Below, one piece after another: positions 24,618 through 48,086 of a stretch of 48,197 nucleotides of DNA (positions within the stretch are counted from its first letter, which is position 1; each line of letters begins with the position of its first letter). The translations under genes were made by a program, and so were the position numbers. The DNA is from a virus, in the IMG/VR virus record IMGVR_UViG_3300038428_000157, positions 1-48,197 of that record; one strand, written 5' to 3'. Under the pieces are notes generated by a model. That model saw only the letters and a program-made list of their open reading frames with translations, ran no database searches and was not told the origin of the DNA.

Positions 24618-26498
24618 TTACTTCTGAGGAGTGGCCTTCTTGAGCCTATCTATCTCGTCCTGAATCGTCTGTTCTGTGAACGGCTCTTCCTTCAGGAACC
24701 GCCTCTTGAGGTCTTCGATTCCCTCTTCGAGTTCTTCTATCCTCTCATCAACATCCTGTTCTCCCTTGGTGAAGATGTCGCCCTCTGCTTCTAGCGGTCT
24801 CTCTCCCTCTGGCGCAGTTTCTTTTCCTAACTCAGACCCCGGTTGGCCGGGTCTTGAAGCCATCTCACGGTCTGGACTACCGAAGGTTGGAGTCCCTTCT
24901 CTAGTCATTCCCTGCCCACCCACACCTGCCATCGGTGGAACGGTTTCGCCTAACTCTTCAGTCAACTCATCTTCATCTATAGGCTCGAAGCCTAGTGCCT
25001 TTCTCACTTCATCTCTGGTGAGGATGCGGCTTGCATACAGAGGCATATAGGTCTTGGCCTTGTCCTCAAGGGAGTCCTCTTTGACTGGCTTCCAGATGAA
25101 CTTCGGAACGTCATACTCATGGATGAGTTCGTCGGCCACTTTGCCATACAGAGACCTCATGACCATTATCATCACCGTCCTCTCTAGTTGGCTGTTGAGG
25201 GACTGGCGATTGCTGTTGATGAATGTGAAGTATCCTCTCTCTACTGTCTGGGCTGTTGCCCTGTTCAGACCCGCAGGGTCGGTGAAGAACTTCGGCACTG
25301 AGAGAGCGTAGGTTCTCATGTTGTGGAGCCATTGAAGCCAGAAGGATGTAGACTGCATTCTGTCAATGGGTGGGTTGATTGGCTCTACATGGATTGGGGT
25401 AGCGGCTCTGACTACGATGGACTGTCCCGGCTGGCTAGTCTGGAAGTATTTCCTCACTGCTTGATACTGTGCCGTAGTCACTTCCTGTCCCATTATGCCT
25501 TGGTCATTCATGCCAACATGGACTAGGAACATGGGCTTCAGGAAGACGTTCATGATGGCTCCCATCGTCTCTTCATAGTTCTTCATGAGTTCCTGATGGA
25601 AGAGGATGGGGCGTAGCATTGAGACACCGTAGACCGATTCATACGTCCATGAAGTGGGCATATAGCGGAGATGAATCATCTCATCTGCTAGGAAGGTGAC
25701 TAGAGGGAACACATAGTATTGGACGTATCCAAGGATGGTTCCATAGGCATCCCTTCTGACCCGCATATACATGGGGTCAAGGGGCTTGAATCGGGTAATC
25801 TCTCCGTAGGGATTCTCCAATTTGTGGGTAGGATACATCTTGTTGTGCCTATCCGCGATGTCCACTCTGTCTGTCCACCAATAACTGTCCTGTCCGTTCT
25901 TGCCTTCGACCTCATAAGAAATTCTGAGAGCCTGAAGGTCGTGGCCAGTTTCGTGACAATACCAAGTTCTGACGACCTCAGTATACGAGTTGCCGAAGAC
26001 TAGCATATCCTTCACCATTATCTTCAGAAGGTTGAGGAAATCGTGCCTATCAAGAAATTGCTTGATGTCCTTAATCACAGTAGGCAGAGGATAGTCTAGT
26101 TCGTAGCCTTGAGAGATGGTCATCTGGGTGTGGAAGTCTATCGTGGCCCTAATGAAAGGCTCCTGAACGTAGTATTGCTTGTATTTCTGGTAGTCTTCTG
26201 TCGGGACTGCACCCCATATCTTCTCCCATACAGCAACGTAAGGATAGACTGTGAACCCAAGTCCAAGTCCGGGCAGTTCCTTAGTCGCATACTCTTCCCA
26301 AGCAAAGTCTCTCCACCAAGCCTCACCCCTCTCTATCTGTCCAATCTGCGTTTCGATAGGTGGTTTGTATGAGGCGGATAGGGTGGGGTCGTCCAGACTC
26401 CTTGGAGAACCTGTTTGCCTTGGGCCGATTATCCTAGTCGCTCGTAACGCACGAATAACGGCGTTCTCGTCCTGACTGGAATCTTGTGCCGCAGACAT
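24618..26498 (-). CDS. portal protein
   Basis: This 626-residue protein has a typical portal layout. An N-terminal arm is followed by a wing region with KIWGAVPTEDYQ, YKQYYVQEPFIRATIDFH and MLVFGNSYTEVVR. After a large beta-rich middle come a stem/clip with FFTDPAGLNRATAQTVERGYF and a Glu/Lys-rich C-terminal coiled coil. Phage portals commonly show the GNSYxE and PxxLxRATAxxxxR patterns. It forms the dodecameric ring at the capsid vertex and docks the terminase and tail. An ERGEAWWRDFAWEEY peptide at residues ~58-72 recurs in the gene at 35516. A TATA-like TTAAATA lies 37 bases before the ATG. Confidence 0.85.
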   Translation of the reverse strand: MSAAQDSSQDENAVIRALRATRIIGPRQTGSPRSLDDPTLSASYKPPIETQIGQIERGEAWWRDFAWEEYATKELPGLGLGFTVYPYVAVWEKIWGAVPTEDYQKYKQYYVQEPFIRATIDFHTQMTISQGYELDYPLPTVIKDIKQFLDRHDFLNLLKIMVKDMLVFGNSYTEVVRTWYCHETGHDLQALRISYEVEGKNGQDSYWWTDRVDIADRHNKMYPTHKLENPYGEITRFKPLDPMYMRVRRDAYGTILGYVQYYVFPLVTFLADEMIHLRYMPTSWTYESVYGVSMLRPILFHQELMKNYEETMGAIMNVFLKPMFLVHVGMNDQGIMGQEVTTAQYQAVRKYFQTSQPGQSIVVRAATPIHVEPINPPIDRMQSTSFWLQWLHNMRTYALSVPKFFTDPAGLNRATAQTVERGYFTFINSNRQSLNSQLERTVMIMVMRSLYGKVADELIHEYDVPKFIWKPVKEDSLEDKAKTYMPLYASRILTRDEVRKALGFEPIDEDELTEELGETVPPMAGVGGQGMTREGTPTFGSPDREMASRPGQPGSELGKETAPEGERPLEAEGDIFTKGEQDVDERIEELEEGIEDLKRRFLKEEPFTEQTIQDEIDRLKKATPQK

Positions 26499-26671
26499 CC
26501 TTATCGAAGGTATTTAAGCGTTCTGCTCTATTTAAGGATTATCTGGGATGGGTAACTGCCATCTGCCCTCACGGAGCAGACCCACTCTCGTTTGTCTGTG
26601 GTAGCAAGAGTGCTCGAAAGTTGCTATCCATCCCAAGGCTTATATACAACCAAGCCCTTTTAAACCTTAGT
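26499..26671 (+). other. divergent promoter region with cloverleaf-like inverted repeats
   Basis: This 173-base gap separates the portal operon from the ATPase gene. It holds two TTAAATA boxes for the minus strand (26511-26517 and 26529-26535). An 8-bp perfect long-range inverted repeat (TGGGATGG 26544-26551 with CCATCCCA 26628-26635) encloses two hairpins: 26562-26580 (5 bp) and 26602-26626 (6 bp). It might be an operator complex or a small RNA of about 92 bases. Confidence 0.4.
26640..26646 (+). promoter_or_regulatory. TATA box for the ATPase gene
   Basis: TTATATA lies 32 bases before ATG 26672. The open frame continues 62 codons upstream, but the extra residues run through the portal promoter. 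Confidence 0.6.
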
Positions 26672-28681
26672 ATGAGTGACAAGTCGGTTACGAAGACCCT
26701 TGATTGGCCTAACCACCGAGTAGGTTCCTCACCTTCAGACCCCATCCGGTTTGAGGATGAAAGGGAGTTCAACCCTGCCATAAGTGAGGGATTTGAGGCG
26801 ATGGCAGACGAAGACTGCGACCTACATAACAAGCCCTACAAGGAGCATTCTCAAACCGAGTTGGATGAGGATGTCACGGAAGTCATGCCCGATGAGAAGG
26901 GAGAGGTCAATCCTATGACCGAGCCTCACGACATTGCGCCCTATGACCAAAATAAGGTGGTTGATATAGTCAACAGGATAGAGTCAACCCAAGACTATGA
27001 GACCCCAGAGGACATGGCTGTAGATGTTCAGTATCTCATTGATACAGGGGTCATCTACGAACTTCAGGGTTCCTACCAACGGCTGGCTCAGTCTATGATT
27101 GACGCTGGCCTCTGTCATGCCCAGACCACAATGCGGGAACAGCAAGACCCCTCTCAACAGTTGAATCCTACTAGCCAACAGAACGTCACACCCTTCAGTC
27201 AGGGCCAGTATATGCCGTCTGGAAGCGAGACGATTTCACCAATCATGCCTCAAGCCCCTATGAGAGAGGAAGACCCAAGCCTTTGGGTGGAGCCTTGTCC
27301 AATGTGTGAAGGCACTGGCACGAATGAAGTAAGTGGCCGTCCCTGCGATTATTGCGAAGGGAAGGGTAAGATTCCTAAATATGAAGAGGGCGGAGACATA
27401 GACGACACGACTCTAGAGGATGTGCCAGAAGACTGTGGGCCTAGTTGTTGCGACATAACGGATGAGGGCGGTTGCGATTGCGGAGATTGTGCAGGGTGTC
27501 TGGGAGACGAACCTAAAGTAGACTGGCGCGATTTGGATGAGGAACTCAAAGACCCACGCATTGGGATAGACAAAGAGAAGGGGAAGGACAAGGAGAAGTC
27601 CATGTCACCAGAGGCCCAGAAGATTTCTGGCACTGACCCCGCGAGTGTAGAGGCCAAGGAGAAGGCGAAGCCCAAACTTGAGGTTGATGTCTCTGACAAG
27701 ATTACCGTTCTAGGCAAGACGGGTTCGGGCAAGACCAACCTCATCAAAGTCCTCATTTCTGACATTCTGCCAGACTTCAAGTTCGTCATTCTGGATGCTC
27801 TTGGCAACCTCAGTGAGTATGACGGCCAGCCTAACATGGATTATCATCAGGTCACGCCTTCCGACCAAGCGACTGTGGATGAGGTAATCTACAATGCTCT
27901 CGAAGCAGGAAACTGTATGGTCGTCATGGATGAGGTAGACCGCTATTCAGCCAAGCCAGATTCGATGCTCAACGAGTTGGTGAACTTGGGTCGGAACTAT
28001 GGTGTCGGTGCTATCTTTGCGGCCAGACGCACAGCCGATGTGAATAAGGACATCTTAGCCAATTCGCCTTTCATCTTCACGTTCCAACACATCCTGCCTC
28101 AAGACCTAGACGTTCTGATTGACTGGTTCGCCCAACCTGAAGAGACCTTTAGAGACCTACAGGAGTTTGAGGCCATACTCTTCAAGGACGGTGAGCAGGT
28201 ATGGGTAGGCAAGGTTCCAGAGAAGCCAACGACCAAGCCCACTGCCAAGCCCAGACAGCCCAAGAAGCCGAAGGGTAAGGATAAGGACAAGGAGCCAGAG
28301 GATAAGGAGAAACCAAAGGAGAAGGAACCAGAGAGTAAGGAGCCAGAACCAAAGGAACCAGAGTCAAAGGAACCAGAAGCACCACCTGAAGAGAAGCCAA
28401 CAGAAGAGCCGCCCGAAGAGGAGCCGCCCGAAGAAGCCCCAAAAGAACCAACTGAAGAGAAGACTGAGGAGAAGGAAAGGGTGCAATGGTGCGCTGGATG
28501 TGGTGGGCAGTTCGAGTCTAGGAAAGACCTCTTCACCCATCAGAGACAGACAGGAGATTCAGGAACTATAGAAGGGACTGCGGAGAAAGCAGAGGAACGC
28601 CCGTTCAAGTGCGACCAATGCCCTGATGCTTACAAGTATGAAAAAGATTTTTTGAATCATATTGTAGAGAAGCACTCATAA
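26672..28681 (+). CDS. FtsK/HerA-superfamily ATPase with DnaJ-like and C2H2 zinc modules
   Basis: This 669-residue protein has an acidic N-terminal half containing the CxxCxGxG pair (CPMCEGTG ... CDYCEGKG, ~208-233) and the CGPSC ... CDCGDCAGC cluster (~255-277). A P-loop ATPase core has Walker A GKTGSGKT (~348-355) and Walker B MVVMDE (~415-420). A Lys/Pro/Glu low-complexity region (~520-600) and two C-terminal C2H2-like fingers follow. The last finger is a perfect C-x2-C-x12-H-x4-H; the first lacks a clear second histidine. HerA/FtsK ATPases pump or resect DNA. It may move or package viral DNA, or be recruited by its fingers to DNA. The zinc modules are shared with the JAMM protein at 20666. 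Confidence 0.75.
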   Translation: MSDKSVTKTLDWPNHRVGSSPSDPIRFEDEREFNPAISEGFEAMADEDCDLHNKPYKEHSQTELDEDVTEVMPDEKGEVNPMTEPHDIAPYDQNKVVDIVNRIESTQDYETPEDMAVDVQYLIDTGVIYELQGSYQRLAQSMIDAGLCHAQTTMREQQDPSQQLNPTSQQNVTPFSQGQYMPSGSETISPIMPQAPMREEDPSLWVEPCPMCEGTGTNEVSGRPCDYCEGKGKIPKYEEGGDIDDTTLEDVPEDCGPSCCDITDEGGCDCGDCAGCLGDEPKVDWRDLDEELKDPRIGIDKEKGKDKEKSMSPEAQKISGTDPASVEAKEKAKPKLEVDVSDKITVLGKTGSGKTNLIKVLISDILPDFKFVILDALGNLSEYDGQPNMDYHQVTPSDQATVDEVIYNALEAGNCMVVMDEVDRYSAKPDSMLNELVNLGRNYGVGAIFAARRTADVNKDILANSPFIFTFQHILPQDLDVLIDWFAQPEETFRDLQEFEAILFKDGEQVWVGKVPEKPTTKPTAKPRQPKKPKGKDKDKEPEDKEKPKEKEPESKEPEPKEPESKEPEAPPEEKPTEEPPEEEPPEEAPKEPTEEKTEEKERVQWCAGCGGQFESRKDLFTHQRQTGDSGTIEGTAEKAEERPFKCDQCPDAYKYEKDFLNHIVEKHS

Positions 28682-39333: not shown

Positions 39334-39452
39334 GGGTATGCCACCCACTTCGCTATCATGTAGTGGTCTGACCAACTTACGAACCACCAATTCTGAGTCC
39401 TCATCTTTATGTGCGCGAAGGACTTGCATCGTCTTGTCAGGTCAGATGTCAT
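39330..39452 (-). CDS. tiny Trp/basic protein (40 aa)
   Basis: A short gene encodes MTSDLTRRCKSFAHIKM and a Trp-rich C-terminus. A GGTGA ribosome site precedes ATG 39452, and it ends in an ATGA overlap. An in-frame ATG at 39470 would add six residues. The 59 bases upstream of 39452 hold no credible gene. Confidence 0.45.
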   Translation of the reverse strand: MTSDLTRRCKSFAHIKMRTQNWWFVSWSDHYMIAKWVAYP

Positions 39453-40241: not shown

Positions 40242-40432
40242 TCAGATACCTCATGTGTGAAGGACAGATGCAGTGGCCAGTCTCCTCTTGGGTCAACCAG
40301 TTTGGAGTGCTTGAGACAGAGTTGAATTGTGAGCGACCCATTCTTCCAGTCTCTCGTCATGATTATGACTTTGCAATCGGGGCAATCCTTATAGATGAAC
40401 TGGTCTTTCCCTTCGAGAGTAAGTTGCTTCAT
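40238..40432 (-). CDS. small zinc knuckle protein (64 aa)
   Basis: This 64-residue protein has CPDC (~17-20) and C-L-K-H (~39-42), giving a C2-CH type zinc site. It is ATGA-coupled on both sides. Confidence 0.6.
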   Translation of the reverse strand: MKQLTLEGKDQFIYKDCPDCKVIIMTRDWKNGSLTIQLCLKHSKLVDPRGDWPLHLSFTHEVSE

Positions 40433-40833
40433 ATTAATGTGAGCCTCATGGTTAGAACGGGTTTCCCTGTCTTGCTAGTCCCTAGTCTCACGACTTGGTA
40501 TCCGAACTTGTTCAGCATTCCGATTGAAGGATGGTTCGAGACTCCCACCTTGGTCTGAAGGAACTTGAAGCCATGCTCCTTGGCCCACTGAATCTTTGCG
40601 TTCAAGAGAAGGGACGCTATCCCTGACCCACGACAATCGTGGTCTACCACTGTGATGGAATACTTGCTGTCCTTGCTCATGGCCGAGTATCCGACTATCT
40701 TCCCGTTCCTCTCTTCGATGAACCCGACCCGCACCCTTGAGCATTTCTTTGGGATGCCCAGAATGTGTCGGTCTCCGTTGGCTGTAATGAAGTCCACTAT
40801 TGCTTGGTAGTCGGCAGGGGTGTAGAGTCTCAT
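40429..40833 (-). CDS. GNAT-family N-acetyltransferase
   Basis: This 134-residue protein shows the GNAT fold order: an N-terminal helix, then RVGFIEERNGKIVGYSAM strands. Motif A follows, VVDHDCRGSGIASLLLNAKI (~62-81, with the R-G-x-G-x-A acetyl-CoA loop), then VGVSNHPSIGMLNKFGY (motif B). It should acetylate an amine of a protein or small molecule. It is ATGA-coupled on both sides in the same array as the amidoligase cassette. Confidence 0.9.
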   Translation of the reverse strand: MRLYTPADYQAIVDFITANGDRHILGIPKKCSRVRVGFIEERNGKIVGYSAMSKDSKYSITVVDHDCRGSGIASLLLNAKIQWAKEHGFKFLQTKVGVSNHPSIGMLNKFGYQVVRLGTSKTGKPVLTMRLTLI

Positions 40834-41365: not shown

Positions 41366-41589
41366 GATTCCAACCCTCTCTCGCGCCCCTTCTTAAAGGT
41401 TGTTGCCGTTCTCATGGCCTCTGTCCATCGAACTAGGGTGTGGCCATTGACCTTGCTTCCGCAGACGAAGAGCATACGGAGTAAGCCTCTTGGCTTCCAA
41501 TAGCCCTTACTCAGCCAGTGATGGAACCACGCTCTGATGTGTGAGTTGGTTCGGAAATTACAGTGGATGCAATAGTAGCGGGGCATCAT
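41362..41589 (-). CDS. C2H2-like zinc finger protein (75 aa)
   Basis: This 75-residue protein has YYCIHCNFRTNSHIRAWFHHW (~5-25), a C-x2-C followed by a His cluster at finger spacing, and a basic tail. It starts at ATGATG overlapping the upstream stop. It probably binds nucleic acid. Confidence 0.6.
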   Translation of the reverse strand: MMPRYYCIHCNFRTNSHIRAWFHHWLSKGYWKPRGLLRMLFVCGSKVNGHTLVRWTEAMRTATTFKKGRERGLES

Positions 41590-42641
41590 TTGATTAGGTT
41601 CTCCCTTGCGCTTTCATCATCGAAGTTGTGGAAGGAAGTCGCGTGTCCGAAGTAGTCGAACCCGTTCTTGAAGATTCTGCCGCAATAGCCGCATCCGACT
41701 GCATCTGGCTCACGCCTAGTGCGATACTCACTTCTCACATAGTCTTGGAGACGGTCTCTGTATTGCTCGTCATCTTCCTCTTCCTCTCTGTAAATGCGGT
41801 CAATCATGTCTCCATTGTGCGTCTCTGATGGTGGTCTTGCTGTGTCTGATATTGGTCTTGTTATGTAGTCTCTGTCTGGGTCTGAGCCAACGAATGTAGG
41901 TATCGGTGGTCTGTAGTCTGGCGCGGTGTCTCTCACGCGCTCATGTGTGGTGTCTGTTATCGCTTCTGCATTGTCGTGAAGCATATGATTGAATCTCTTT
42001 CTGTCTACATGGGCCTCTAAGTATCCCAAGTTCTCGAAGACCACGTTGCAGATTGAGCAACCCACGACTTGGCTTACGTCCATCCCTGTTGGCATTCTCT
42101 CTTCCGGTGGCAACGCCCTGACTCTAGCAATGAACATCTCGAAGTTGTGTGTCCGTGTGTTGTGAGTCTCGGCTGTTCTCCAATTCTCATAACGCCATCG
42201 AGTCGTGCCTCTGTCTGGCGTATTGTGAATCTGTCGGGCCATGCTGTAGAGTCTGTTAGCAACCCTGACCTTCCAGACTATGAACGGCTCGTCTGGTCTT
42301 CGGGCCTTGTCGTTCTCTGTTAATGCGGTCTCAGCCATCGTCATCTCGGTCTCTTCCTCTTCGTCCACCTCAACTCTTGAGGGTCGAATCAGATAACCAA
42401 GGCCAAGGCATCGTTGGTTTCCACTACACCGACAAGCGTTATGTTCCCAATAGCGGCACGTTGGTTCGTAGCACACACATTGGATTTGGAGATTCAGATT
42501 GTTAACTGTCTCAGAAAGTTCCATTGACATCCTCTCATTAGTTGCGGTGTCTCGCTCTGCCATGCCTTTCACTAGGGTCTCATGAAGGAGTTCGATTTCC
42601 TTCACGGCACACTGCATCGAAATGTCTAGTCTAAGCGGCAT
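41586..42641 (-). CDS. multi-zinc-finger protein (351 aa)
   Basis: The N-terminal ~75 residues end in a Cys cluster (CVCYEPTC ... CRCSGNQRC) and resemble the first part of the adjacent 42645 gene. A helical middle carries WRYENWRTAETHN. Two C2H2-like fingers follow, one with CSICNVVFENLGYLEAH (~196-212) and one with CGYCGRIFKNGFDYFGH-x4-H (~317-338). A Tyr/Asp/Arg-rich disordered linker separates them. Tandem C2H2 fingers point to DNA binding, perhaps regulation of viral genes. Confidence 0.7.
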   Translation of the reverse strand: MPLRLDISMQCAVKEIELLHETLVKGMAERDTATNERMSMELSETVNNLNLQIQCVCYEPTCRYWEHNACRCSGNQRCLGLGYLIRPSRVEVDEEEETEMTMAETALTENDKARRPDEPFIVWKVRVANRLYSMARQIHNTPDRGTTRWRYENWRTAETHNTRTHNFEMFIARVRALPPEERMPTGMDVSQVVGCSICNVVFENLGYLEAHVDRKRFNHMLHDNAEAITDTTHERVRDTAPDYRPPIPTFVGSDPDRDYITRPISDTARPPSETHNGDMIDRIYREEEEDDEQYRDRLQDYVRSEYRTRREPDAVGCGYCGRIFKNGFDYFGHATSFHNFDDESARENLIK

Positions 42642-42644
42642 GGT

Positions 42645-43103
42645 CTATCTCTGGGTCTCCGTTGATGCTAGGTAGTCCTCAAAGGCATGGGAGTCAAACC
42701 CTATCCCCTGATGTCTAGGGTCTGGTTCATGGCTCTCAGTGCGGCTGAACCCTTCGCCTATCTTGAAGACCTTATTGCCCCGATGTCCGATAACCTCTAA
42801 GTTCTTACAACTCAAGGCTGGCCTAGTTGTGGATTCCCAATCTACGCAAGTGCAGAAGCGGGTTCCATCGCTGTCTGACTCTACGAATGGGCAACGGTCA
42901 TCATGGCATTTGCAGACTATCTCAAGTTCCTTTGTCTTCTCAAGCATCTTCCTCACTGTCCATTGCTGAATCTTCGAGCCAGCAAGTCTGACCATCTCAA
43001 TGAGACGTTGCGCTTCCATGACTCTGCAAGGCAATGAAGTCGTCTTGACCTTCATCTTCTTGTAGTTGGTGATGGCTCTAGTCGCTGGATGGATTATTGT
43101 CAT
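42645..43103 (-). CDS. Cys-cluster protein related to its neighbour (152 aa)
   Basis: This 152-residue protein has a helical region (~25-60) followed by VCKCHDDRC ... FCTC. It shares the order helix then C-x-C-x4-C-x-n-C-x-C with the N-terminus of the 41586 gene, suggesting a duplicated domain. It is ATGA-coupled to the ATP-grasp gene. The function is unknown. Confidence 0.6.
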   Translation of the reverse strand: MTIIHPATRAITNYKKMKVKTTSLPCRVMEAQRLIEMVRLAGSKIQQWTVRKMLEKTKELEIVCKCHDDRCPFVESDSDGTRFCTCVDWESTTRPALSCKNLEVIGHRGNKVFKIGEGFSRTESHEPDPRHQGIGFDSHAFEDYLASTETQR

Positions 43104-43879
43104 GCTAGGCTTTCAACCCATCTCTTGAAGTTCTTGGCGTAGCGATTGGTATCCTTGAGTTTCGGTGAAGTGTTTGCTTCGAGAATGTAAGCCTTGTCTC
43201 CTACCATGATTAGGTCTACGGCTCCGAAGTCCAGACCTAGAGCCTTGCAAGCCTTTACCGATTCGACTACCATCTCCTTGTAGTTCGGAACGGCCTCTTC
43301 CCTTTCCTCTCTCGCGTAGTAGACCAACTCCCACCCGTTCTCGAAGTTCCAGATAACAGGGTTCGGATTCTCTGCTGGCTTCTTCTCTGCTAGTCCGATA
43401 CACTGGCCTTGGAAGATGTGAAGTCTGAACTCTCTATCCTTCTCCAAGAACTGGACGTAATATCCGCTTCTCCTTTCGCGGGGTAGGCTGTCCGTTGGTC
43501 TTAGGCGAAGGATGTCTTGGCCTTGAATGTGGTGCTTGCGTCTCCGAAGGAAGTCGCAACCCAACTCACGACACTTGGCCTTGGCTGTCTCGAAGTCGTT
43601 CCAGAATAGGGGTGCGCTGACTCCTGCCTCTAAGAACTTGGCGTGTGCCTTGTCCTTATGGAGATTGCCATTGATGGCTCTGGCTGGATTCAAGACTGCC
43701 TTGGCTCCCTCATCCAACTCTGGGAATCTAGTTGAACCCCACCGAATCACAACGTATTCCTCTCTTGGTCTGCTCGTTGGATTCCTCACAACCTCTAGCC
43801 CGTCCTCTTCGAGCCTCTTGATAATCCGTTCCGGTGTCTCGGATTTACTCACACCGCAGTCAATGAAGACGACTATCAT
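43100..43879 (-). CDS. ATP-grasp ligase
   Basis: This 259-residue protein has the RimK-like ATP-grasp layout. It has an N-terminal Rossmann-like part (IVVFIDCGVSKSETPERI), a central Lys-rich ATP-binding region, and a YYVQFLEKDREFRLHIF strand pair. The C-terminal metal-binding block contains LGLDFGAVDLI and YILEANTSP (E and N as Mg ligands, ~232-242). Such enzymes make amide or peptide bonds through acyl phosphates. It lies in one transcript with the GAT-II-like and amidoligase genes, which makes peptide-tag or surface-molecule synthesis likely. ATG 43879 starts one base after the upstream stop. Confidence 0.85.
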   Translation of the reverse strand: MIVVFIDCGVSKSETPERIIKRLEEDGLEVVRNPTSRPREEYVVIRWGSTRFPELDEGAKAVLNPARAINGNLHKDKAHAKFLEAGVSAPLFWNDFETAKAKCRELGCDFLRRRKHHIQGQDILRLRPTDSLPRERRSGYYVQFLEKDREFRLHIFQGQCIGLAEKKPAENPNPVIWNFENGWELVYYAREEREEAVPNYKEMVVESVKACKALGLDFGAVDLIMVGDKAYILEANTSPKLKDTNRYAKNFKRWVESLA

Positions 43880-43880
43880 T

Positions 43881-44543
43881 TTAGTAGTATCCCCTTTCGT
43901 GCCAAGCCTTGGCAATATCGCTCAAGTCTACGGAGTTGTCGTCTTGTTTTGCGGCTCCCGCAGGAACCTCTTTTGGGTCGAGAAGCACCGTCCCGTCTTC
44001 GTCTGCCATCTCTTCCTTGTCGCTCTTGTCTGGAAGTGCTTTCTTCTTTGGCTCGTATTTCTGTGTGATTGGATTCCATTCGGTCTTCTCCTCTTCAGGT
44101 GTCCCTTCCTTCTTAGGAACGAAGGCAACGATTGGCTCAGTGAGAGGGTCATTCGAGTCCTTCACTTCTACCCTCTCCTTGGCATCCGCTTCGCCTTTCA
44201 GAATCCTGATGGGGAATCCGTTCTCAATAAGGGTCTCTGGTTCCATCGCTCCTTTAGAAGGTGGCTGACCCGTAGATGCTTCCACTAAGGCATTCATGAA
44301 TTGGGTGAAGGTCACATAAGAGCCAGACCTGTCGTTCAGTTCAAACTCTGTGAAGTTCGGAAGCCAGACCTTCAACTTGTAGTCGTTGCCATAACCTGAT
44401 TTTCTGGGTGTGACTTCGACCCGCATCACGGCTCCCGCTATCCTAATCTTCTGGTCATTCTCCTTGAGTTTGATGCCCTTCGAGATTTTACTCTCGTCTT
44501 GGCCCGTCTTCCTTATCGGAATGTGGTCTGAGTTGTAGGACAA
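43881..44543 (-). CDS. amidoligase-cassette protein, unknown (220 aa)
   Basis: This 220-residue protein has a beta-rich N-terminal half (KIRIAGAVMRVEVTPRK, YKLKVWLPNFTEFEL), OB-fold-like in pattern, and a disordered Pro/Lys/Glu C-terminal half ending in a short helix (AKAWHERGYY). TTG 44543 follows the upstream stop after one base. It lies between the GAT-II-like and ATP-grasp genes and may be the carrier or substrate of the cassette, since its flexible tail has an exposed Tyr-Tyr end. That is speculation. Confidence 0.6.
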   Translation of the reverse strand: MSYNSDHIPIRKTGQDESKISKGIKLKENDQKIRIAGAVMRVEVTPRKSGYGNDYKLKVWLPNFTEFELNDRSGSYVTFTQFMNALVEASTGQPPSKGAMEPETLIENGFPIRILKGEADAKERVEVKDSNDPLTEPIVAFVPKKEGTPEEEKTEWNPITQKYEPKKKALPDKSDKEEMADEDGTVLLDPKEVPAGAAKQDDNSVDLSDIAKAWHERGYY

Positions 44544-44544
44544 T

Positions 44545-46188
44545 TTAGTTATTCCCCATGTCGAAGCACGTTTCCTTTACTAGCATTCCGTTCTGGTCGA
44601 AGCCACCGAAGCCTTGTTTGTGGTGAACTGTGCAAACCAGTCCAGCCTTGGGTCTGCAATCGCAACCCATCGGCCTCTGTTTTATCACGACGACCTCACG
44701 CTTTTGTCTGTTCAAGTCGTTCATGGGGTGCATCGCTTCTGAGAACCCACACCGTCCACAACTCCCTGAGTCTGTGTAGAACCTGCGCCCTGACTTGGGG
44801 TCTTCGTCTTCTATCTTCATATCTTGGTAGAAGTGCGTCTCTGGCCCGTCCTCTTTGTGGTTGCCAACTGCTCTGCTCTGGCCACAATCTTGGCAGTAGT
44901 CGCTCCCACCTAGTTTCTTGAACTCATGAGCCAAGTGGAGAACGCTGAAACTGGACTTCGTTCCGCACATACACTGAATGGTCGGGTAATTGAAGTCCCG
45001 CGTGAAGGGGTGTCTTTTGTCCCATTTGTCGTATTGGTCTTCTAGTTGGTCTTGTGTTTGCTCTGCGGCTCGGTTCCGATTCAGTTCTTGAAGAATTTTG
45101 TGGTAGGGTAGGCTCATCATGCACACATCGCAAGTTGCCATTCCTGAATCATCCTTCGTGCCAGATGGAACGAATGAGTGGTCTGATGGGTCGCTGTAAG
45201 TGTCGAAGTCTAAGGGTCGGCCCTTCTTGTCCACCATTGCTCTCATCTTTGCGTCCCAATGCGCCCCGTTTGCGATTGCCTTGTTGTAGTTCTGGGAAGA
45301 GAACCCTTTGACTCTTCCGCATTCCGATGGCATCACGCCCTGACCCTGTTGTAGTTCCCATGCCTCTGCGTTTTGAACTCCACCACCTAAGTCCCAAATG
45401 TCTGCGTCTGAGAAGACCTTGCGGTAGGTTCCGTTGCCAGCGTCTTGATAATAGGACGTTATCTGAGTCTGGCTCTTCACTTTCCACACATGGGCCTTAG
45501 TCTTGTAGGTCGTGCCTTTACCGTAGGCGATTGAACCGTAAGGCATCTCATCGAACTTGATTCCAAGTTTCTTGGCTTGCGCTTCGTCTAGCCATGCCTT
45601 GTCTGAAGAGACCACGATAATATCCCCGTCCTTGGTCTTCGAGATTCCAAGTGCTGACTCTGCCATCGCAACCCATTCGTCTGTCACGAAGTTGTAGAAG
45701 ATAAGATTGGCCCATCCTGTGATGTCCATCTCCTTGACCTTCTCGGTGAACTTCTTGGCTCTCTTCTCTAGGTTGCTCTCGTTGATGTCGGCCCAGATGT
45801 GAATGAAAACTTCGCTGTCAATCTCAGTCGTCATAATGTGCTTGTCTCTCAACATAAGTCTGGCATTCGTATCTTGAACGCATCCATTGTGAACCAGAAG
45901 CCAGTTGCCGCTTTTCAAGTCCTGTCTGTCTCGGCAGATGAACGGATGAGTCCCTTCGCCCTTCGTTGCCTTGCGGAAGTGAATGAGCATCCTATCATAA
46001 CTGCGCTCAAGTCGAGCCATGTCGTGGCTCTTCATGATTCGAGCCAAGTGCTTCTCTTCTCCCGTCTTCACCTTTGGGTAGTCTCGCCAGTAGCACCCAA
46101 CGCCATCGTCATTCGTTCCGGCCCACGCTGACTTGAATGCCAACTCGAAACTCTGAAGAGCCTTGTCGTTCCCAATTACTAATGCCAT
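44545..46188 (-). CDS. class II glutamine amidotransferase-like protein without the catalytic Cys
   Basis: This 547-residue protein has an N-terminal Ntn-hydrolase fold of the GATase-II type: LIHFRKATKG (matching GHTRYATHG), LVHNGCVQD (oxyanion Asn-Gly) and TEIDSEVF (matching ETDTEV). The normal nucleophile, Cys at position 2, is absent: the protein begins Met-Ala, and only six in-frame sense codons without a standard start precede it. The C-terminal half (~350-547) carries at least five Cys knuckles (CDVC, CMCG, CQDC, CGRC, CDC). It may be a non-hydrolytic or differently activated member that binds an amide substrate. It neighbours the amidoligase and ATP-grasp genes. Confidence 0.8.
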   Translation of the reverse strand: MALVIGNDKALQSFELAFKSAWAGTNDDGVGCYWRDYPKVKTGEEKHLARIMKSHDMARLERSYDRMLIHFRKATKGEGTHPFICRDRQDLKSGNWLLVHNGCVQDTNARLMLRDKHIMTTEIDSEVFIHIWADINESNLEKRAKKFTEKVKEMDITGWANLIFYNFVTDEWVAMAESALGISKTKDGDIIVVSSDKAWLDEAQAKKLGIKFDEMPYGSIAYGKGTTYKTKAHVWKVKSQTQITSYYQDAGNGTYRKVFSDADIWDLGGGVQNAEAWELQQGQGVMPSECGRVKGFSSQNYNKAIANGAHWDAKMRAMVDKKGRPLDFDTYSDPSDHSFVPSGTKDDSGMATCDVCMMSLPYHKILQELNRNRAAEQTQDQLEDQYDKWDKRHPFTRDFNYPTIQCMCGTKSSFSVLHLAHEFKKLGGSDYCQDCGQSRAVGNHKEDGPETHFYQDMKIEDEDPKSGRRFYTDSGSCGRCGFSEAMHPMNDLNRQKREVVVIKQRPMGCDCRPKAGLVCTVHHKQGFGGFDQNGMLVKETCFDMGNN

Positions 46189-46211
46189 TCTACAGATGGT
46201 TCTCTACCTCT

Positions 46212-47792
46212 CTATCCGTTGATTATCATCGCGTGAGAAGACGCATCGTAGAAGACCTTGAGTTCTGCCAAGGCTTTCGTGACTCGCTCGTTGGTGATTC
46301 CTAATAGGGCCGCGACCTTCGAGACCCAATCCTCTTCACTTACAGATTCAATCTCAGCCAGTGCGATTATCTTGTGCAGTTGTTTCGCTACGGGCGAAGT
46401 CTCGCTGACTAACTTCTCGGTGGTCTGCTGTGCTGGCTCTCGTTGCCTCACTGGATTCTCAATCAAATGCTTCACGCAATCCTTTTCAAACTCACTGAGG
46501 AAGGGGGCCAGTTCTCTTAGAAGTCTGATTGAATGCTCTCTCATGAATGCTTCGTCTTCTGGGGTGATTCCACTTCGAGCCTCTATCTTCTCGATAACGG
46601 CCTTGACTCGCTCCCATTGCTCCTTGTTGGTCTCTACGCTGATGAGTCCGAAGTTGCTCAGTTGTGCGCTCCTGAGAATCAATCCCTTAGTCAACGACCT
46701 TGCGCTCAAAATTTGCTCCATGTCGAATGTCGAGTCGGGTGTCCGAACCTCAATGTCGAATGCGTCCATCAGTGGCCTTGCGATTGGTGTGTCAACGAAA
46801 AAGAGTCCTGCTCTTGCCGTGTTATTGTTATGCTCGTTGAGTCCATTGGCCCATCCTGCCGAGAATGGGGAGCGTTTGTAATAGTGGAAGTGAGCGTAGA
46901 ACTGTCCGTCATGTTGTGAGTTGCGAATGAATCCAGTTTGTGGGCTATAGTTGCCGAAGAGATTCACGATTGCGGGGTAGTAGAACCTGTAGAGTTGCCA
47001 TAAGTTCTTGGCGATAACGCTCGGAATCCTCTCGATATTGTGAACTAACATAGCGTGAACGTGAAGACTGTTATGCTGACTTGGCACGAAGTATCGCTTA
47101 AGTTTTTGCAACGGGAACCGCTTTACGAACTCTTCGCTAGTGATATTGCTACCGTAGATAATGAACTCCCATCCTTCCACTGAAGCGTCCTTTTCAATGC
47201 TTCGGATAAGATTCTCTGGAAGGTGGTTCCAACATTCTGAACTCCCGCAACAAGGGCAATCGGGTAGTTTGTGGTAGGGAGTTGGGGCCAGTCCGTAATA
47301 CTCTGCAATCTCGCGCTCTGAAGGTGGACGTGTCCGATTCTTGAAGTCATATTCACATTCGAGACCGAGAACTAGGTTCTTGTTAAAGTAGGCTGTGAAG
47401 TCTTCCTTAGTCGCTTCCTTAGTCCTGAAACGCCAAGTCGGTTTCAGTGCGGCCTTCTTATGACCGATTCCTACAACCATTTCCTCTGAGTCGTCTACCT
47501 TCTCGGTGACTCCTTGTTTCACGCGGATGGTGGCCCAAACCTTCGAGTCTACTAGGCTCTTGTAGGCGTAGAAGATTCCGGCTTGGTTTGCACCGCATTC
47601 GTAAAGTCTACGGCAGACTGGCTCGTTGGCTAGTGTCGAATGAATGTGATGGTCGGGGTCTTCGTTTGAAGTGTGGGTCTCTGCCAACTCTCCGCAATAG
47701 GGACAATGGATTTCGTTTGTCGGATGCGGCACTAAGTCCGTGAACTTAATGGGGTCTTCGTCTAGCGTCAACGTCTCATTAGGGAAGGGCAT
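46212..47792 (-). CDS. amidoligase (glutamine synthetase-like COOH-NH2 ligase)
   Basis: This 526-residue protein has the amidoligase core: GLECEYDF (~143-150, metal-binding Glu pair), DASVEGWEFI (~203-212), SLHVHAML (~242-249, the H-V-H motif) and DIEVRTPDSTFD (~344-355, the I/E-x-R motif). A zinc knuckle pair (CPYCG, and CPCCGSSEC near 180) is inserted. The C-terminus is helical and ends in a winged-helix-like part. Amidoligases form amide bonds between amino groups and carboxylates. With the ATP-grasp and GAT-II-like proteins it resembles the modification cassettes described in bacteria and phages. Confidence 0.8.
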   Translation of the reverse strand: MPFPNETLTLDEDPIKFTDLVPHPTNEIHCPYCGELAETHTSNEDPDHHIHSTLANEPVCRRLYECGANQAGIFYAYKSLVDSKVWATIRVKQGVTEKVDDSEEMVVGIGHKKAALKPTWRFRTKEATKEDFTAYFNKNLVLGLECEYDFKNRTRPPSEREIAEYYGLAPTPYHKLPDCPCCGSSECWNHLPENLIRSIEKDASVEGWEFIIYGSNITSEEFVKRFPLQKLKRYFVPSQHNSLHVHAMLVHNIERIPSVIAKNLWQLYRFYYPAIVNLFGNYSPQTGFIRNSQHDGQFYAHFHYYKRSPFSAGWANGLNEHNNNTARAGLFFVDTPIARPLMDAFDIEVRTPDSTFDMEQILSARSLTKGLILRSAQLSNFGLISVETNKEQWERVKAVIEKIEARSGITPEDEAFMREHSIRLLRELAPFLSEFEKDCVKHLIENPVRQREPAQQTTEKLVSETSPVAKQLHKIIALAEIESVSEEDWVSKVAALLGITNERVTKALAELKVFYDASSHAMIING

Positions 47793-48086
47793 CTATTCAT
47801 TCCACCTGTCTGAATCTTCGTCTCGGTCTTGGCTGTCTTCAAGGGTATCTCTGTCTTGGTCTTCAATCCTTCGGACTCCGAGAACGCCTTGTGAAACCGT
47901 GTCCTTTTTCAAGAACTCGATGAGGCGATTTCGGCTCACAGCAATCGAGACCACGAACTCTTTACCTTCGTTCTCCTTGAGTTTCAAGGGCATCTCTTCG
48001 GTCACTTGAACGCTCTTCCTGACTCTCTTTCGGAATGCGTTTACCAATTCGCTGTCTTCTCCACCCTTGCGATTTTGTCGTGCCAT
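47793..48086 (-). CDS. small charged leader gene of the array (97 aa)
   Basis: This 97-residue protein has a basic N-terminus, a beta-strand core (KEFVVSIAVSRNRLIEFLKK) and an Asp/Arg/Glu-rich C-terminal tail. It is the first gene of the array, starts 29 bases after a TATA box and ends directly before the amidoligase ATG. The function is unknown. Confidence 0.6.
   Translation of the reverse strand: MARQNRKGGEDSELVNAFRKRVRKSVQVTEEMPLKLKENEGKEFVVSIAVSRNRLIEFLKKDTVSQGVLGVRRIEDQDRDTLEDSQDRDEDSDRWNE

Follow-up and report, generated by a model that had tools for sequence, protein, structure and literature searches.

A divergent variant of the phage amidoligase/GAT-II/ATP-grasp cassette, with a putative near-cognate start codon in its glutaminase gene

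The window, meaning the whole stretch of DNA analysed here, is a 48.2-kb fragment (48,197 nt) of virus record IMGVR_UViG_3300038428_000157, which represents a tailed virus known from metagenomes. Its right end is occupied by a compact minus-strand run of six genes, A to F, the first four of which form the cassette. The features are listed below from upstream to downstream, with dN/dS values taken from the comparison with a 105-kb relative.

47793..48086, minus strand: conserved 97-aa ORF, immediately upstream of A and between both amidoligase genes
46212..47792, minus strand: A, predicted divergent GS-fold amidoligase of 526 aa (fold model, motifs, dN/dS 0.19)
46195..46197, minus strand: likely near-cognate start codon ATC of B, at which the 105-kb relative has ATG
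44545..46197, minus strand: B, class II glutamine amidotransferase, GAT-II (PF13230, motifs, start context, dN/dS 0.23)
43881..44543, minus strand: C, 220-aa protein without a recognised family (ORF, dN/dS 0.17)
43100..43879, minus strand: D, RimK-like ATP-grasp ligase of 259 aa (phrog_2599, TIGR00768, dN/dS 0.20)
42645..43103, minus strand: E, conserved Cys/His-rich protein of 152 aa, overlapping D by 4 nt (dN/dS 0.22)
41586..42641, minus strand: F, conserved protein of 351 aa that weakly matches C2H2 zinc fingers (dN/dS 0.36)

The first-pass annotation had described an amidoligase, a GAT-II, a protein without a family and an ATP-grasp ligase as consecutive and nearly gap-free, and this is borne out, with all four ORFs present and spacings of 14 nt (A-B), 1 nt (B-C) and 1 nt (C-D). 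The run continues with a 4-nt overlap between D and E (-4) and a gap of +3 nt between E and F, and these last two genes are probably co-transcribed with the cassette. Two starts were corrected. D begins at the ATG at 43879, one base past the stop of C, rather than at the ORF-finder TTG at 43915, which would overlap C; B was extended upstream of the ATG at 46188, back to the ATC at 46197-46195, as an N-terminal position of its catalytic cysteine would require. The GNAT acetyltransferase gene that had been noted further on is real (40429-40833), and was rejected as a fifth cassette member, having no detectable copy in the 105-kb relative. A PADLOC search of A to F for anti-phage defence genes returned nothing beyond noise.

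The ATP-grasp ligase D matches phrog_2599 (E 4e-35) and TIGR00768 (E 9e-6), carries the motifs REFR, GLDFGAVD and LEAN, and aligns with phage ATP-grasps through the catalytic motif and weakly with RimK. It resembles RimK, the ribosomal protein S6:glutamate ligase, in its ATP-grasp fold and C-terminal catalytic motif, but reaches only 25 bits against the curated RimK family, below the cut-off of 143, and the window holds neither S6 nor a RimK operon context.

The amidotransferase B scores above the family cut-off of PF13230 (E 8e-6), and its profile aligns with that of eight phage GAT-IIs (E 7.6e-5). The motifs HFRKATKG (H-x-R-x-AT-x-G) and HNG and the aspartate of EIDSE are in place, and the C-terminus carries CxxC zinc-ribbon-like motifs. 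The Cys1, R, HNG and D motifs of class II glutaminases are all found in B, Cys1 being conditional on an AUC start in the window and following an AUG in the relative.

The support for A as a GS-fold amidoligase, which comes from motifs and a structural model, is good but not final. No family was matched in Pfam, NCBIfam or PHROGs, and a PDB search gave no sequence match. Amidoligase_2 (PF12224), which was detected in all eight inspected phages of this cassette type, matched neither A (E<=1) nor its relatives and paralogs (E<=10). The sequence has an N-terminal zinc-ribbon-like stretch (CPYC), the motifs LECEY (144), KDASVEGWEF (201), SLHVH (242) and FDIEVR (345), and a C-terminal helical region. 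The AlphaFold model is of low confidence (mean pLDDT 52). A Foldseek search with it against viral structures placed amidoligases at ranks 1, 2, 4, 6, 10, 12 and 15 (best E 1.4e-4), and its PDB matches, at E 3e-3 or weaker, were led by the Pup ligase PafA in its complex with Pup, followed by glutamine synthetases, with low TM-scores that are attributed to the poor model. The predicted fold of A thus appears to be shared with PafA and glutamine synthetase, from which A differs in having no PDB sequence match and in that no Pup was recognised. A profile alignment with eight phage amidoligases superposes the DxS..G.E, S.HVH and E.R motifs and is, at E 0.021 and a probability of 2%, weak alone and only suggestive; a comparison with three phage amidoligases failed. 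Of the ATP- and metal-binding residues that the earlier reading wanted to see in structural models, the catalytic motifs are there in the sequence, while the models are too poor for a judgement.

A second, shorter amidoligase paralog lies upstream of A, beyond the right end of the window (L001:264-1430, L004:4506-5702 and L021:7884-9107). It is carried by both relatives that reach past that end, one of them a 38-kb near twin (G002) that is 99.96% identical to the window and extends 1.5 kb further, and a third record, L021, also holds it. The copy in the near twin is 34% identical to A, and the paralog was not assigned to PF14395 in a search at E<=10. The two amidoligases of this virus parallel the COOH.NH2 ligase and amidoligase of many phages.

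Protein C consists of a basic N-terminal part, an acidic variable linker and a C-terminal tip. It has no family in Pfam, PHROGs or NCBIfam and no homolog in any phage record, and its predicted structure is unusable (pLDDT 35).

The 105-kb relative carries an 82-bp terminal repeat, and is therefore probably complete. It carries the complete set, arranged as in the window and the stretch beyond its right end: amidoligase 1, then small ORFs, amidoligase 2, GAT-II, C, the ATP-grasp gene, E and F, with protein identities of about 73-83% for the cassette genes. The dN/dS values of A to D (0.17-0.23) indicate purifying selection, and those listed above show that the cassette genes through F are all maintained; amidoligase 1 gives 0.22 and the DNA polymerase 0.08 in the same comparison. 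The co-conservation asked of the four genes is thus found, and their shared order and continued purifying selection in this relative make the association more than chance. The repeat of the relative corresponds to positions 39371-39452 of the window, which bridges the ends of that contig, and the virus genome is likely to be about 105 kb and circular or permuted.

The archaeal host assumed in the first-pass annotation is not upheld, as no archaeal signature was found in comparisons of TerL, PolB, capsid and portal. The TerL of the 105-kb relative best resembles those of Rossellomorea/Bacillus phages (about 27%), the PolB of this B-family polymerase virus is about as close to 5mdn, a PolB of archaeal origin, as to Pol II of E. 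coli, and neither capsid nor portal matched any phage record. Without support for an archaeal host, pseudomurein is not supported as a target either. Scans of genome contigs with the amidoligase and the polymerase, the polymerase peptide patterns being N-terminal and poor, gave no relative and hence no provirus or host. A plus-strand gene of the window at 26486-28681 encodes 731 aa and includes an ATPase domain of HerA/terminase type (PF01935, phrog_2666), although in the 105-kb relative the large terminase is a gene of its own (L013:4975-6564).

Relatives of D were found in 314 phage records and relatives of the GAT-II of phage EK010 in 318, and the two sets are distributed over organisms in nearly the same way. 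EK010 has its amidoligase gene first, then GAT-II, two small ORFs and ATP-grasp, and seven phages besides EK010 carry the amidoligase/GAT-II/ATP-grasp trio in the same or other arrangements. In UFV-P2 the set comprises a COOH-NH2 ligase and an amidoligase together with GAT-II, small ORFs and ATP-grasp (PMC3890496). The kuraviruses (phiEco32, EK010, Paul) share with the window the order amidoligase, GAT-II, small ORF(s), ATP-grasp, the zinc-ribbon-like cysteine pairs at the end of the GAT-II, and a non-AUG start before its catalytic cysteine (AUU there, probably AUC in the window). The window differs from them in an amidoligase below HMM detection, two paralogous amidoligases (the second past the window end), a C unrelated to the small phage ORFs, the lack of a gamma-glutamyl cyclotransferase and of a hairpin before the start, and in belonging to a B-family polymerase virus. 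The cassettes of LUZ24/PaP3-like phages and Zobellviridae (UFV-P2, O4, T2S2) have, like the window virus, a paired ligase/amidoligase (in their case COOH-NH2 ligase and amidoligase) with GAT-II and ATP-grasp. Unlike those of the window, their amidoligases are recognised by Pfam (PF12224, PF14395) and several have a cyclotransferase or MazG-like gene, and in Zobellviridae the GAT-II lies upstream of the ligases.

The window cassette is therefore not a new system but a diverged form of one already known from phages; what is new is this form itself and the unusual start codon of its GAT-II. The cassette occurs in more than 300 phage records, and a diverged version with a duplicated amidoligase shows that amidoligase, GAT-II and ATP-grasp are its constant parts, and the cyclotransferase and the small partners its variable ones.

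Cassettes of this type had been predicted to make amide-linked modifications, and family matches, motifs and phage counterparts support this here. Given the established family-level gene identities, motifs, order, co-conservation and purifying selection, it is probable that the window encodes a distant form of the amidoligase/GAT-II/ATP-grasp cassette found in phages such as kuraviruses and LUZ24/PaP3-like phages, which would build amide bonds on a peptide target. Judging from the enzyme families, B would hydrolyse glutamine via its N-terminal cysteine and hand the ammonia to A, to the upstream paralog or to both; A and/or the paralog would draw on ATP for the amidation or ligation of a carboxylate; and D, acting in the fashion of RimK, would likewise consume ATP in attaching an amino acid to the carboxylate of a peptide or protein, presumably on a shared substrate. 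The likeliest target would be a host-side peptide (envelope, surface or soluble), whose change may exclude competing viruses or blunt the host response. The envelope or surface part of this reading derives from a statement on phiEco32 in PMC10580990 which, citing Iyer et al. 2009, suggests a cell-wall modification preventing superinfection; an envelope target is here a rather doubtful guess, and a literature search found no experimental test of the function of the cassette. Against the cassette reading stand the lack of a sequence family for A, its weak profile comparison and low-confidence fold model, the need for an AUC start if the window GAT-II is to keep its cysteine, and the lack of a phage counterpart for C. 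The gamma-glutamyl cyclotransferase (PF06094) that many such phages have is likewise absent from the window and two relatives, in searches that detected the controls.

The position of C, flanked by the GAT-II gene on one side and the ATP-grasp gene on the other at a distance of a single base, could instead point to an intracellular protein modification, in which C, or another viral or host protein, would be the acceptor, its tip extended by D as RimK extends S6 and the tail capped or branched by the amidoligases in a RimK- or Pup-like manner. RimK-type ligases are the closest named families of D, and the best PDB match of A is PafA in complex with Pup. The tip, WHERGYY, is identical in the window and the 105-kb relative while the acidic linker before it varies, and this is the one hint in favour of the tail as acceptor, a role proposed in the first-pass annotation that is otherwise not supported. 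A pupylation system would comprise a small modifier ending in GGE/GGQ and proteasome genes; C ends in WHERGYY. Interaction tails, too, typically have conserved C-termini, and the structure of C is not predictable. The absence of C homologs from phage records, together with the lack of resemblance between C and the small proteins encoded at the corresponding place in EK010 and GAP52, which have no such tail, also weighs against this explanation, which we consider unlikely.

Less likely still is the synthesis of a small molecule, with the cassette glutamylating or amidating a cofactor or soluble metabolite such as a coenzyme resembling pterins or F420, or a metabolite acting against defence: D weakly matches both the tetrahydromethanopterin:glutamate ligase MptN and the RimK family, far below the cut-offs, but the MptN match is no better than that to RimK generally, neither an archaeal nor a methanogen host is indicated, and no other biosynthetic genes were recognised nearby.

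The known phage system, to which the window cassette belongs on the preferred reading, has a recurrent peculiarity at the start of its GAT-II gene. In the 105-kb relative B begins with ATG-TGT (Met-Cys), and in the window and its near twin this position reads ATC-TGT. An in-frame stop lies shortly upstream of the window ATC, and the next ATG (46188) is two codons after the cysteine codon, so that B is either AUC-initiated or a dead enzyme, a start at AUG 46188 losing the catalytic cysteine. The ATG of the relative would fit a decaying cassette, in which a change of the start codon from ATG to ATC deprived the GAT-II of its nucleophile, leaving a system that no longer works, but the frame of B is intact and conserved, an SD-like GAGG lies about 8 nt upstream of the ATC, and in independent phage GAT-IIs this very codon is ATT or ATC, and decay is accordingly improbable. 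AUC initiation is favoured because AUU and AUC starts before the cysteine are found in other phage GAT-IIs: the 26 inspected cassette GAT-IIs start with ATG (16), GTG (2), TTG (1), ATT (5) or ATC (2), and the cysteine always comes next.

Each of the six phage GAT-II genes with an ATT or ATC start is preceded by a perfect hairpin, whose end lies 14-15 nt ahead of the start. Its stem is 5-6 bp long, and the Shine-Dalgarno sequence lies between stem and start codon. The position criterion was derived from these first six cases, and a pattern scan of viral contigs (Shine-Dalgarno, ATH, Cys-Gly) served as an independent test. The scan gave 15 places, 14 of them GAT-II genes, although, as it required GGAGGA, it does not measure the frequency of such starts. 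Amidoligase and ATP-grasp genes were present in the examined stretch at many of these places, not all, some stretches being short. A hairpin ending 13-15 nt upstream was found in nine of the 11 distinct new leaders. Pooled, and ignoring kinship among the leaders, the hairpin occurs in 13/15 distinct AUU/AUC leaders outside the window virus and in 0/19 AUG/GUG/UUG genes, with a shuffled expectation below 1% per leader. The stem sequences differ among leaders, indicating that structure and not sequence is kept, and no Rfam family was matched at the gathering threshold. The hairpin is absent from the leader of the window B, and the common feature is the start codon type alone. The AUU/AUC starts with the hairpin pattern are at L005:5479, L043:401, L053:401, L056:401, L029:2810 and L031:3239, with others in L058, L061-L068, L070 and L071.

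These starts may place the GAT-II gene under special translational control, with AUU or AUC right before the catalytic cysteine, in many phages with a conserved hairpin and strong Shine-Dalgarno sequence just ahead of it, and with the AUC start shared by the window virus. The ammonia-producing step would then be kept low, or switched, by IF3-like start-codon proofreading or by reinitiation from the upstream amidoligase, a proposal for which we see the chances as evenly balanced. The recurrent AUU/AUC start with its hairpin provides a direct way into the regulation of the cassette by phages.

Because of the AUU/AUC starts, GAT-II genes are often annotated without their catalytic cysteine. Deposited GAT-IIs lacking the nucleophile, with an annotated start 3' of its codon, include those at L005:5509 (EK010), L043:743 (Paul), L029:2861 (KpnP_VR7901), L031:3350 (O4) and L053:434 (BUCT695). 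In EK010-type phages (L005) and Aeromonas phage BUCT695 (L053), a conserved 9-codon leader ORF (MKGFTLQVD / MKGLTLQAD) lies upstream of the AUU and ends in a TAG stop three bases before it in the same frame, an arrangement that could possibly allow reinitiation, or readthrough with a cleaved propeptide.
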